Part shown: positions 22,173 through 37,081 of the stretch, piece after piece
Layout of the letters: each line of letters opens with the position of its first letter
How positions within the stretch are numbered: position 1 is the stretch's first letter
Source: Hyphococcus luteus
GTDB lineage: Bacteria > Pseudomonadota > Alphaproteobacteria > Caulobacterales > Parvularculaceae
DNA length: 64,000 bases
Reading direction: 5' to 3'
Assembly (NCBI RefSeq): GCF_002943565.1
Contig: NZ_PJCH01000017.1
Span: 372,001 to 436,000 of the forward strand
The notes under the pieces: generated by a model
What the model saw: only the letters and a program-made list of their open reading frames with translations
Database searches by the model: none
Told to the model about the DNA's origin: nothing
Translations under genes and position numbers: made by a program

Positions 22173-22964
22173 TCAGCTGCGCATGATGCCGAGCATGCCG
22201 CCGTCGGCGGAGATCGACTGCGCATTGATATAGCCCGCCGCATCGGAGAGCAGGAAGGCGGCGAGCCAGCCCGCCTCTTCCGGTTCGCCGACGCGCCCCT
22301 GCGGGACCATTGCTTTGAGAATATTCAGCGTCGCCTTCATGTCGCCGTCGGCGACGTGCTCGGCCAGCGGTTCGAGGAGCGGCGTGTTGATAAGGCCGGG
22401 GATGAGGCAGTTGACGCGGATATTGTGTTTGGCGACTTCCGCCGCCGTCGCGCGCACGAGGCCTAAGACGGCGTGTTTCGACATGACGTAAGCCGGCGTC
22501 ATGGGCGCGCCGAGTTTCGAGGTCAGGGAGCCGGTGCAGACGATGGAGCCCGAGCCCTGCTCGATCATGCCGGGCAGGACCGCCTTAATCAGGATGAACA
22601 TCGACTTCAGATTAACGTTCATGACGTCGTCATACGCGTCGAGAGAGTATTCCGTCATGGGCGCGGCGGGACCGGACACGCCAGCATTCGCGAAAACGCC
22701 GTCGACGCCGCCCCAGAGCGCTTTCGCCTTTTCGGCAAGCGCGGCGATGTCGGCTTCGCTGCCCATGTCGGCGGCGAGATACCGGCCCTCCCCGCCGGCT
22801 TTGGTCACTTTGTCGGCGACGGCTTTTAGCTTGTCTTCGGAGCGCGCGGCGACGAGGACTTTCGCCCCGAGGGAGCCCATGATCTCCGCCGCCGCGGCGC
22901 CGATGCCGGTGGAGGCGCCGGTGACGATGATGCGTTTTCCTTCGAGCGAAACGCTTTTGATCAT
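22173..22964 (-). CDS. SDR family oxidoreductase in the aryl-ketone cluster
   Basis: 263 residues of classical SDR: cofactor loop TGASTGIG (about 15-22), NAG in FANAGVSG, catalytic Ser in CTGSLTSKLGAP and Y-x3-K as YVMSK. The Arg/Ala pattern after the second strand (VLVAARSEDKL) favours NADP(H). Its ATG overlaps the amidohydrolase stop by four bases (ATGA), so it belongs to the same transcript. By context it may oxidise an aryl ethanol to the aryl ketone that the rest of the cluster handles; substrate is inference. Confidence 0.88.
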   Translation of the reverse strand: MIKSVSLEGKRIIVTGASTGIGAAAAEIMGSLGAKVLVAARSEDKLKAVADKVTKAGGEGRYLAADMGSEADIAALAEKAKALWGGVDGVFANAGVSGPAAPMTEYSLDAYDDVMNVNLKSMFILIKAVLPGMIEQGSGSIVCTGSLTSKLGAPMTPAYVMSKHAVLGLVRATAAEVAKHNIRVNCLIPGLINTPLLEPLAEHVADGDMKATLNILKAMVPQGRVGEPEEAGWLAAFLLSDAAGYINAQSISADGGMLGIMRS

Positions 22965-23830
22965 TTAAGGCCCAGAAGCTTCGCCGCATTCTCCTTCATG
23001 ATCAGCGGCATCACTTCCTCGCGGAAACCGGCGCTCTCAGCCGCGGCCATCCATTTGTCCGGCTTGATCAGCGGGAAGTCGGAGCCGAACAGCATCTTGT
23101 GTTTCAGCCGCGAATTGGCGTCGGCGATCACCTGTTTCGGGAAATATTTCGGCGACCAGCCGGAAAGGTCGATGTAAACATTCTCCTTGTGGAGCGCCAT
23201 GGAGAGCGACTCGTCCGTCCACGGCCATGACGGGTGGGCGAGAATGATCTTCATGTCGGGGAAGTCCACCGCCACGTCGTCCACCATCATGGGCTGGCCG
23301 TATTTGAGGCGAATGCCGCCGCCGCCCTTCATGCCGGTGCCCATGCCCGAATGGCCCGTATGGAAGATGGCGGGCAGGCCGTATTCGGCGATCACTTCAT
23401 AGATCGGCCAGGCCATGCGGTCGTAAGGATGGAAGTTCTGGATCGGCGGGTGGAACTTGAAGCCCTTGACGCCGTATTCCTCGATCATGCGCCGCGCCTC
23501 GATGGCGCCGAATTTCGATTTGTGCGGGTCGATGGACGCGAAGGCCATCATGATGTCGTCATTGTCCTTGGCGAACTGCGCGACTTCTTCGTTGCGGATG
23601 CGCTTGATGCCGGTGCCGGACTCCATGTCGACCGTGAACATCACGAAGGCGATATTCTGCTTGCGGTAATACTCGATGGTCTCGGGGATCGTGGGGCGCT
23701 TGCGGTCGGCCTTGAAATAAACGCTCGCCGCATCGAGGAACTTGCCCATGATCGGATCTTCGGGGTCGTTGCACGACACCTCCGCATGGGTGTGAATGTC
23801 GATGGCCTTAATTTTGTCTACGTCGATCAT
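22961..23830 (-). CDS. Amidohydrolase-2 family hydrolase, candidate aryl beta-ketoacyl-CoA hydrolase
   Basis: 289 residues of the metal-dependent amidohydrolase superfamily: DIHTHAEV near the N-terminus, conserved GFKFHPPIQNFHP, second metal His in IFHTGHSG, LAHPSWPW, and FGSDFPL near the C-terminus. The same superfamily branch includes CouO, the 4-hydroxyphenyl-beta-ketoacyl-CoA hydrolase of hydroxycinnamate breakdown. In a cluster that appears to produce aroyl-acetate it is a good candidate for cleaving the CoA thioester to an aromatic acid and acetyl-CoA. An ACMSD-like decarboxylase activity is the main alternative. Confidence 0.82.
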   Translation of the reverse strand: MIDVDKIKAIDIHTHAEVSCNDPEDPIMGKFLDAASVYFKADRKRPTIPETIEYYRKQNIAFVMFTVDMESGTGIKRIRNEEVAQFAKDNDDIMMAFASIDPHKSKFGAIEARRMIEEYGVKGFKFHPPIQNFHPYDRMAWPIYEVIAEYGLPAIFHTGHSGMGTGMKGGGGIRLKYGQPMMVDDVAVDFPDMKIILAHPSWPWTDESLSMALHKENVYIDLSGWSPKYFPKQVIADANSRLKHKMLFGSDFPLIKPDKWMAAAESAGFREEVMPLIMKENAAKLLGLK

Positions 23831-23873
23831 GTTCCTGCCTTACCGATAAACCTGTTTGGCGCAAAACTAACAT

Positions 23874-35202: not shown

Positions 35203-35686
35203 GAGTTCGTCCTGCCTCGCCCGTCGGGCCTTACGCTAAAGCTTTCCGCTTTAAGCAGAACGCCGGTCTGCTTGACAATGCGCTGCTTGGAAGCGGGCGA
35301 TGATGTTGGCGCCGTTCGCGGCATCGAAATCCTTTAAAAGCGAAATCACACTTTCCGGCGCGCGCCCGTCGCAAAGGCCTGATTTGCAAGGCTTCGCTCA
35401 TCGCGCGTCGCCGGCTTTCACTCGCCTTTACGCAGGTGCAGCAAAATCGCCGGCGCCTTCATCGCCGTAAAGCCGTTTTGGAAGGCGGCGCCGCAACTTC
35501 CTTTTTCCGCCATTTTTTCTGCGCTGGGGCAGGGTTTTCGAGCTATTTTCGGTCAGTGTTTGCAAGCGCCGATAGTAGACCCGCGCCTTCAAAAATTGTA
35601 AGCAACATAAACAATATTGGGCGCCCTCAACTCGCGGACGTCCCTTTAATTCTTGAAAACCCGAGATCGAGGAGGATTCCGCCGCA
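35203..35686. other. 484-base intergenic region between divergent ligase and O-demethylase genes
   Basis: No credible gene or RNA. It must hold both promoters. Visible details are an imperfect dyad around GCTAAAGC / GCTTTAAGC near 35235-35256, a TTGACA at 35272-35277 without a clear partner box, and an A/T-richer stretch at 35590-35620. GAGGAGG lies about ten bases before the O-demethylase ATG. Confidence 0.5.
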
Positions 35687-37081
35687 ATGACAGCCAAGAA
35701 CCTGGAAGAAAAGCTCAAAGCCGCCGGCAATACGGTGGACATGCTCCGCAATTCGAAAATCGGCGCTTATGTCTATCCGGTCGTGCCGACCGAATTTCAC
35801 AACTGGCGGGACGAACAGCGCGCCTGGCGCGAGACCGCCGTCCTGTTCGACCAGACCCACCACATGGTCGATCTGTTCCTGAAAGGCCCGGACGCGATCA
35901 AGGTCTGCTCCGACACCGCGATCAACACTTTCAAGAACTTCCCCGTCAACCGCGCCAAACAATATGTGCCGGTCAGCCATGACGGCTATGTGATCGGCGA
36001 CGGCATTCTCTTCAACCTCGAAGAAAACCACCTGGTATTCGTCGGCCGCGCGCCTTCCGCCAACTGGCTGCAGTTCCAGGCGGAAACCGGCGGCTACGAT
36101 GTCGAAGTCACCTATGACGACCGCTCGCCCTCCATGCCCATGGGCCGCGCCGTCACCCGCAAATTCTACCGCTTCCAGATCCAGGGCCCAAACGCCCAGA
36201 AGATCATTGAAAAGCTCAATGGCGGCCCGTTCGAAGACATCAAGTTCTTCCATATGGGCTACATTAATATCGGCGGCAAAAAAGTCCGCGCCCTGCGCCA
36301 CGGCATGGCCGGCGCGCCGGGTCTCGAAATCTGGGGCCCTTACGAGGAATATCTCGACATTCGCGCGAAAATCCTCGAAGAGGGCGCCGAATTCGGCATC
36401 GTGCCGGTGGGCTGCCGCGCCTATGCGACCAACACACTTGAGTCGGGCTGGATCCCCTCGCCGCTTCCCGCTGTCTACACCGGCGAAGAGATGAAAAAAT
36501 ACCGCGAATGGCTCCCGGCCAACTCTTATGAGGCCATGGGCTCCATCGGCGGTTCTTACGTCTCCGACAATATCGAAGACTATTATGTCTCGCCTTACGA
36601 CATCGGCTATGGGCCCTTCGTCAAATTCGACCATGACTTCATCGGCGCCGACGCCCTGAAGAAAATGGAAGGCGAACAGACCCGCCGCAAGGTGACGCTC
36701 GCCTGGAACGACGACGACGTGCGTAAGATCATGGGCTCGGTCGTCGGCGAAGGCACGCCTTACAAATATTTCGAGCAGCCGCTCGCCAACTACGCCTCGT
36801 CGAACTACGACTCGGTGCTCGCGAACGGCAAGAACGCCGGCTTCTCCATGTTCACCGGCATCTCCTACAATGAGCGCAAGGCGCTCTCGCTCGCCACGGT
36901 CGACAATGATGTCGAGGTCGGCAACGAGGTCACGGTGGTCTGGGGCGAGCCCGACGGCGGCACCGAAAAGACCACGGTCGAAAAGCACCAGCAGATGGAA
37001 GTCCGCGCCATTGTGAGCCCGGTTCCCTATTCGGAAGTCGCCCGGAAGGAATATGCGTCCGGCTGGCGCACCGGGAAATAA
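35687..37081 (+). CDS. LigM/DesA-like aminomethyltransferase-fold O-demethylase
   Basis: 464 residues of the GcvT (aminomethyltransferase) family. Its length and features (long N-terminal arm, [75 protein letters not shown]) fit the tetrahydrofolate-dependent vanillate/syringate O-demethylases LigM (471 residues) and DesA (462) better than GcvT of the glycine cleavage system (about 365). The family transfers a methoxy methyl group to tetrahydrofolate. Placement beside the aryl-ketone genes supports demethylation of vanillate or syringate. A dimethylsulfoniopropionate-demethylase-like role is a less likely alternative. Confidence 0.8.

Follow-up and report, generated by a model that had tools for sequence, protein, structure and literature searches.

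Here we describe a gene cluster at positions 22173 to 37081 of a 64,000-nucleotide stretch of the Hyphococcus luteus genome (contig NZ_PJCH01000017.1, positions 372,001 to 436,000; hereafter the window), which very probably encodes the catabolism of hydroxyaryl methyl ketones. By its sequence relationships, the locus combines three modules into a hybrid: an Acv-type two-subunit kinase, a carboxylase of the clade that otherwise accompanies the unrelated one-component kinase MarK, and an aroylacetate-processing set whose last steps may be shared with the breakdown of β-O-4 dimers. The pathway itself is known, and what is phylogenetically new is that its modules differ in ancestry; the joining of a two-subunit kinase to a MarK-branch carboxylase is new as far as could be seen. 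The twelve genes of the locus are as follows.

29380..31194, minus strand: AcvA/HpeH-type dikinase subunit with substrate-binding and swivel (mobile-His) domains (PF00391; NF006153, 787.5 bits against a cut-off of 578; predicted catalytic His563)
28323..29369, minus strand: AcvB/HpeI-type dikinase subunit, ATP-grasp (PF01326)
27855..28313, minus strand: biotin carboxyl carrier subunit, BCCP (PF00364; ETMKLM motif)
26350..27711, minus strand: biotin carboxylase, BC, placed in the MarK clade by tree and approximately unbiased (AU) test (PF00289, PF02786, PF02785)
24876..26357, minus strand: carboxyltransferase, CT, placed in the MarK clade by tree and AU test (PF02436, PF00682; open frame to 26444)
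24041..24886, minus strand: HAD-IIA phosphatase with a putative AcvF/HpeD role (TIGR01460, 101.5 against 100.15; PF13344; start TTG at 24886 or ATG at 24844)
22961..23830, minus strand: CouO/HpeF-family hydrolase (Amidohydro_2, PF04909), proposed aroylacetyl-CoA hydrolase
22173..22964, minus strand: short-chain dehydrogenase/reductase, SDR (PF13561)
31380..32321, plus strand: divergent LysR-type regulator, target presumed (PF03466, PF00126)
32465..33478, plus strand: medium-chain dehydrogenase/reductase, MDR, quinone-oxidoreductase-like (PF00107, PF08240)
33637..35202, minus strand: AMP-forming, FadD-like acyl-CoA ligase, proposed aroylacetate-CoA ligase (PF00501, PF13193)
35687..37081, plus strand: LigM, tetrahydrofolate-dependent vanillate/3-O-methylgallate O-demethylase (NF047885 equivalog, 813.6 against 580 bits; PDB 5tl4/5x1i, E 1e-208)

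The first eight genes form one minus-strand run, transcribed from 31194 to 22173 in the order mobile-His subunit, ATP-grasp subunit, BCCP, BC, CT, HAD-IIA phosphatase, hydrolase and SDR. Within it the genes overlap by 4, 11 or 8 bases (4 between SDR and hydrolase) or are separated by gaps of 9, 10, 143 and 210 bases, with 26357 rather than 26444 as the most likely CT start. The products carry GGSMSHAAIV with His563 in the mobile subunit, ETMKLM in the BCCP, DxDGT in the HAD protein, HTH in the amidohydrolase, and TGxxxGxG and YxxxK in the SDR. An earlier note, made from the sequence alone, had named these genes in this order, and open frames, Pfam and NCBIfam support and catalytic signatures bear it out, including the divergent LysR gene, which is retained in the two related genomes G037 and G048. 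It had also placed an acyl-CoA ligase and a LigM/DesA-like demethylase after the regulator. Both are present, the ligase gene lying on the minus strand and convergent with the MDR gene, which the note had missed. The demethylase scores above the LigM equivalog cut-off and below that of the DesA model (662.7 against 800), which removes DesA as a candidate in place of LigM.

For comparison we used two candidate loci: L135, which we take to be from Sphingobium lignivorans SYK-6, and L177, presumably from Novosphingobium aromaticivorans F199. The kinase subunits are 74% (mobile-His) and 67% (ATP-grasp) identical to those of presumed SYK-6, and the split phosphotransferase proposed in the earlier note stands on PF00391, NF006153 and PF01326. 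In a quick tree of 36 mobile-subunit rows, the window and presumed SYK-6 fall in a 16-row clade (SH-aLRT 100), and all 16 rows come from carboxylase-linked clusters. Outside this clade lie the Pps row L003, a phenylphosphate synthase of Azoarcus KH32C with ppc genes beside it, and row L005, called Cre-like from its P450 and monooxygenase neighbors. A kinase of the phenylphosphate or cresol type is rejected on the basis of this tree, and the nearest rows of the window in the ATP-grasp tree agree with it. Searches of viral contigs with the kinase gave no match. Among characterized relatives, HpeHI is a two-component dikinase whose activity requires a conserved His (PMC12167813).

The carboxylase has a different affiliation. 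A CT alignment, used to scan genome contigs, recovered 432 relatives, and we kept the 80 best. These, plasmid records and additional fetched regions made up 109 sequences, which were sorted into 63 with a UPF0261 (Tm-1-like) protein (MarK-type), 29 with a two-subunit kinase and 17 with neither; the last comprise nine without a CT, seven with the upstream side at a contig end, and L087. These sequences are not independent, with near-copies among Novosphingobium and plasmids, and L012 was left out as it is on the same contig as G037. L087, a Rhodoblastus sphagnicola contig, has interrupted BC and CT frames and about 3.5 kb upstream without a kinase, and looks decayed. With the window-type rows G037, G048 and L013 set aside, the best matches of the window BCCP, BC, CT and HAD proteins are all in UPF0261-type clusters. 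The CT is 76–78% identical to the best MarK-type proteins and 54% to that of presumed SYK-6; the BC is 56% identical to presumed SYK-6. For the HAD protein, the values are 55% to the best MarK-type, 50% to the best other two-subunit-kinase cluster and 40% to presumed SYK-6.

In a quick CT tree of the 29 two-subunit-kinase rows and 28 of the 63 MarK-type rows, selected by us, the four window-type rows join 22 MarK-type rows in a 26-row clade (support 100), while 12 Acv rows form a separate clade (support 100). Quick BC and HAD trees were built with 20 of the 63 UPF0261-type rows, also selected by us, and the HAD tree places the window with MarK-type rows (support 95). The AU test rejects a constraint that unites window-type with Acv rows, both for CT (p 0.00107) and for BC (p 1.5e-5, 12 rows held). 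Neither BC nor CT groups with the Acv carboxylases of presumed SYK-6, and by tree both belong with the clusters that use MarK. A pyruvate carboxylase or oxaloacetate decarboxylase identity was also considered and dropped, since these NCBIfam models score below their cut-offs and the carboxylase belongs to the Acv/Hpe/MarK family. The record titles of L013 (Gammaproteobacteria) and L082 (a Klebsiella pneumoniae metagenome-assembled genome) fit the trees poorly and may be binning or labeling errors.

We searched 49 UPF0261-type genomes for the two-subunit kinase, together with one two-subunit control, which matched. Five have a homolog, three of them at 71–73% in a cluster apart, which has a CT gene of its own, and two at 44–45% that group with the phenylphosphate-synthase row. 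The opposite pairing is found in G238 and G129 (L112–L115), of the same order as the host, where the kinase is 81% and 72% identical to that of the window and the CT only 47–48%. Taken as a whole, the make-up of the window locus points to an exchange of kinase, carboxylase and downstream modules between lineages.

N. aromaticivorans begins the pathway with MarK, a single-component kinase (PMC13101465, citing Hall 2025); as reported there from Hall 2025, clustering of the kinase gene with the carboxylase genes was seen in just 52 of 836 cases. The modeled UPF0261 protein of L055 (mean pLDDT, a predicted local confidence score, of 87) matches PDB 9mpy with 74% identity and a TM-score of 0.69; 9mpy is Saro_1862, a UPF0261 domain protein from N. 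aromaticivorans in complex with acetovanillone. We infer from this structure and PMC13101465 that the UPF0261 protein is MarK. UPF0261 as an undescribed alternative kinase was accordingly dropped as news, with MarK already cited there and acetovanillone already seen in the structure. Literature searches for Tm-1-like kinases with bisphenol or 4-hydroxyacetophenone, and for MarK under its name, found nothing. UPF0261 (PF06792) has no match in the host genome. In presumed F199 the sole CT match adjoins the sole UPF0261 match and a divergent MDR gene, whose product is 65% identical to the MDR of the window. MDR homologs (at least 45%) lie within 11 kb of the CT in 43 of the 63 MarK-type loci and 7 of the 29 two-subunit-kinase loci, counted over unequal flanks; these seven include three window-type ones.

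Other UPF0261 arrangements were seen among the relatives. The plasmids of Sphingomonas bisphenolicum AO1 (L006) and Sphingobium yanoikuyae YC-JY1 (L009), and a contig of Sphingobium bisphenolivorans (L022), carry UPF0261, carboxylase and phosphatase genes with β-keto acid cleavage enzyme (BKACE) and thioesterase genes upstream; as a guess, this pair may correspond to VceA/VceB. A Pseudomonas putida YC-AE1 plasmid typed as conjugative (L007) combines an acetoacetyl-CoA synthetase-like ligase, UPF0261, carboxylase, HAD protein and CouO-family hydrolase, an Hpe-like set with a MarK-type kinase. In the Geobacter/Desulfuromonadaceae relatives L083, L085 and L091, two UPF0261 genes flank the carboxylase and an SDR gene is also present, the second UPF0261 copy being only 30–32% identical to the P. 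putida protein.

The third module resembles genes found at β-etherase loci. The hydrolase is 72% identical to its homolog in the presumed F199 β-etherase locus, and in the hydrolase tree it joins β-etherase-locus hydrolases in a 15-row clade (support 100/100) that includes L081, from a gammaproteobacterial kinase cluster. On the other side of this tree are hydrolases beside feruloyl-CoA synthase genes and the Hpe-like ones of Rhizobium and Rhodococcus. Homologs at E 1e-80 or better occur in 71 of 159 genomes of the genus Novosphingobium (that of G327 and L045). Nine of these loci were read over 20 kb each: a ligase of the same type and LigM are present in all nine, the SDR in eight, and a glutathione S-transferase (GST) at least 70% identical to the BaeA-like GST of Sphingobium sp. 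V4 in seven. Hydrolase, SDR, ligase and LigM homologs fall together within one 20-kb stretch in eight of the nine, presumed F199 included. Two plasmid loci hold partial sets in the stretches taken: L145 of V4 has ligase and hydrolase with no SDR or LigM match, and L146 of Novosphingobium sp. RL4 has hydrolase, SDR (41%) and LigM with no ligase match. A pyrroloquinoline quinone (PQQ) dehydrogenase gene lies between ligase and hydrolase in V4, and its homolog is likewise placed in presumed F199, where the SDR beside the hydrolase is 47% identical to that of the window. The gene order there agrees with that published for the baeA, baeB and ligF2 cluster (Saro_2873, 2872 and 2865; PMC6369299). The window ligase is 55–56% identical to the β-etherase-locus ligases of V4 and presumed F199, and homologs at 51–53% lie beside 3 of the 63 MarK-type clusters.

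We propose the following route, with the order of steps taken from published Hpe work; the reactions, substrate range and LysR regulation are predictions. The two-subunit dikinase would phosphorylate the phenol via a phosphohistidine, the BC/CT carboxylase would carboxylate the methyl carbon, and dephosphorylation by the HAD enzyme would give an aroyl acetate such as vanilloyl acetate. The CoA ligase and CouO/HpeF-family hydrolase would then yield the aryl acid and acetyl-CoA, and LigM would convert vanillate to protocatechuate, feeding 4,5-cleavage genes elsewhere in the genome. Expected substrates are acetovanillone, probably 4-hydroxyacetophenone, and perhaps acetosyringone, the last by analogy, because AcvAB accepts it (PMC13101465). 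In the Hpe system, HpeCBA carboxylates ketones only once they are phosphorylated, and HpeD shows a preference for the product of carboxylation (PMC9618137). Breakdown of β-O-4 dimers may draw on the last steps as well, because Novosphingobium keeps homologs of the processing set in its β-etherase locus.

Each known system shares part of this design. The AcvABCDEF system of SYK-6 (Higuchi 2022, as described in PMC9618137 and PMC13101465) has, in its candidate locus, the two-subunit kinase, BCCP, BC, CT and phosphatase in one run. Unlike Acv, however, the window has BC, CT and HAD proteins nearer to another branch, and SYK-6 is reported without HpeE/HpeF homologs and to use VceA/VceB. The hpeHICBADEF genes of Rhodococcus rhodochrous GD02 (PMC9618137) share the logic and the functional set, including a CouO-family hydrolase. 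In place of the HpeE-type ligase, the window has a FadD-like one, and it adds SDR, MDR, LysR and LigM genes. For sequence comparisons, Rhodococcus sp. JS3073 (L004) stood in for GD02; the window genes are 42–58% identical to it (HAD 37%, hydrolase 50%), and its kinase and hydrolase lie outside the window clades. Because the JS3073 kinase and hydrolase rows do not group with those of the window, the sequence kinship of the window locus is with Acv and the sphingomonads rather than with Rhodococcus Hpe. The MarK pathway of N. aromaticivorans has the closest carboxylase branch (CT 69% in presumed F199, up to 78% in others) and the divergent MDR, but uses a one-component UPF0261 kinase instead of a two-subunit dikinase. 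The baeAB/ligF2 locus (PMC6369299) shares the ligase (55%), hydrolase (72%), SDR (47%) and LigM (65%) in its candidate L177; no kinase or carboxylase homolog was found in that stretch, which instead has GST β-etherase genes and the PQQ dehydrogenase.

The earlier note had likened the set to Acv and Hpe together. A dikinase, three-part carboxylase and HAD protein in one run and a kinase in the presumed SYK-6 clade agree with this, but the Rhodococcus Hpe kinase and hydrolase do not fit, as they group elsewhere. Its suggestion that the order and combination may be new needs qualifying: upper and downstream steps already occur together in GD02 (PMC9618137), and the mixing of modules was not visible from the sequence alone. 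The nearest relatives of the phosphotransferase, carboxyltransferase and amidohydrolase are not pyruvate-metabolism or unrelated enzymes, as shown by the kinase clade, the carboxylase family and the CouO/HpeF family of the hydrolase.

The locus is patchy but maintained. The host genome is 4.92 Mb in 16 contigs, and proteins labeled Parvularcula sp. and Hyphococcus sp. are 91% identical to its mobile-His protein. With a threshold of E 1e-100, the kinase is present in 3 of 60 genomes of the family (the host, G037 and G048), and it occurs in 5 of 299 of the order, including these three. In the genus of G307 (L022, Sphingobium bisphenolivorans), 8 of 94 genomes carry it, one of them as a partial match. 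The arrangement is not due to chance, since G037 keeps all twelve genes with the order unchanged and G048 keeps ten (MDR, LysR and the eight-gene run), its contig ending just past the MDR gene. No described member of the pathway from the host lineage was found in a limited literature listing. Relatives of the host may already have yielded other enzymes acting on lignin phenols, and Marinicaulis is mentioned 10 times in a study of phenolic-oxidizing flavoenzymes (PMC7617285).

Elsewhere, the host genome has PobA, four LigA-type matches and a second LigM-family gene at 56%; by eye, 4,5-cleavage-type genes lie near two of the four LigA-type matches. By eye, contig 3 has LigB/LigC/LigI/LigJ/LigK-like frames, and FerA/FerB-like frames lie next to PobA. 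Contig 3 (L193, 345000–364999) also has a BaeA-like gene (77%), a BaeB-like gene (55%), a PQQ dehydrogenase gene (61%) and, by eye, an aldehyde-dehydrogenase-like frame, which suggests from sequence similarity that the host also attacks β-O-4 dimers. In a search limited to L193 and the neighboring stretch L104, no ligase or hydrolase of the window type was found in the former and only a 32% ligase in the latter. The window has a G+C content of 62%, and the locus is flanked by GuaA on one side and by the Kbl and Tdh genes on the other. Those beyond LigM are equivalogs of glycine C-acetyltransferase (37255–38457) and threonine 3-dehydrogenase (40150–41304), for ordinary threonine catabolism.

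Several observations weigh against a ketone pathway of the Acv kind. The Rhodococcus Hpe kinase row sits on a long branch outside the Acv clade, and among the sets listed for the ATP-grasp tree (up to half of the rows), no starred set unites the window with presumed SYK-6. The structure predicted for the mobile subunit was of low quality (mean pLDDT 58) and was set aside. For the HAD protein the AU test does not reject the same constraint (p 0.208), and the AU groups were defined post hoc from quick trees. The Rhodococcus and Rhizobium Hpe-like hydrolases cluster with Cou-type ones rather than with that of the window. The ligase is not an HpeE homolog, as an acetoacetyl-CoA synthetase-like query from L001 had no listed match in the window, G037 or G048, and its proposed substrate is an analogy drawn from its neighborhood. 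Finally, Ser precedes the catalytic His in the kinase motif, as in PpsA and CreH, where HpeH has Cys (PMC12167813), and the exact phenol substrate is therefore not readable from the motif. The homologous two-subunit dikinases PpsAB and CreHI (PMC12167813) raise a related reading, in which another phenol (phenol, 4-cresol or a 4-alkylphenol) is the kinase substrate and the carboxylase serves, for example, 4-hydroxyacetophenone derived from alkylphenols rather than guaiacyl compounds. The kinase tree, however, sets the window apart from the Pps and Cre-like rows, and LigM adjoins the locus of the kinase/carboxylase run. No UbiD or P450 family was found among the window proteins scanned, so the Pps/Ppc type does not apply, and we regard this reading as improbable.

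The processing genes could also have neighbors by accident, as a hydroxycinnamate (Cou-type) β-oxidation branch of ligase, hydrolase and SDR lying beside an Acv operon. CouO homologs in L010 and L011 do have genes for feruloyl-CoA synthase, enoyl-CoA hydratase and an SDR as neighbors. Yet the SDRs of these loci are only 29–31% identical to that of the window, its hydrolase groups with the β-etherase-locus ones and not with L010/L011, and the hydrolase gene lies inside the kinase/carboxylase run. No enoyl-CoA hydratase was found among the cluster genes scanned, and FerA/FerB-like frames occur elsewhere in the host genome (by eye). We reject this branch on the hydrolase tree and regard it as improbable, about as much so as the previous reading. 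A role of ligase, hydrolase, SDR and LigM mainly in β-O-4 dimer side chains (via β-hydroxypropiovanillone, HPV, and vanilloyl acetate), shared with the ketone module, is possible though clearly the lesser likelihood, and is compatible with ketone catabolism by this locus. Homologs of the four genes co-occur in β-etherase loci, and the BaeA/BaeB-like and PQQ dehydrogenase genes of contig 3 fit such a role, but no such ligase or hydrolase accompanies them in that 20-kb stretch. The hydrolase and SDR genes moreover share one run with the kinase and carboxylase genes, an arrangement suggesting that ketones are the inducers.

If ketone catabolism is indeed the function of the locus, the host lineage would have a lignin-ketone pathway gathered in one place. 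The ligase and hydrolase are candidates for the vanilloyl-acetate step of F199, because that strain is reported without VceA/VceB; PMC11837543 reports this step as undiscovered in N. aromaticivorans, for which two candidate genes are now at hand. We lean, by a little, toward a broader proposal: that this pair is the missing vanilloyl-acetate-to-vanillate step of Novosphingobium, that the locus joins the acetovanillone and β-O-4 dimer routes at one shared intermediate, and that it records a natural kinase exchange that put an Acv-type dikinase with a MarK-type carboxylase. If true, this pairing would show that the carboxylase is indifferent to which kinase supplies its substrate. Module exchange also leads to the prediction that strains for lignin streams can be built from mixed parts.

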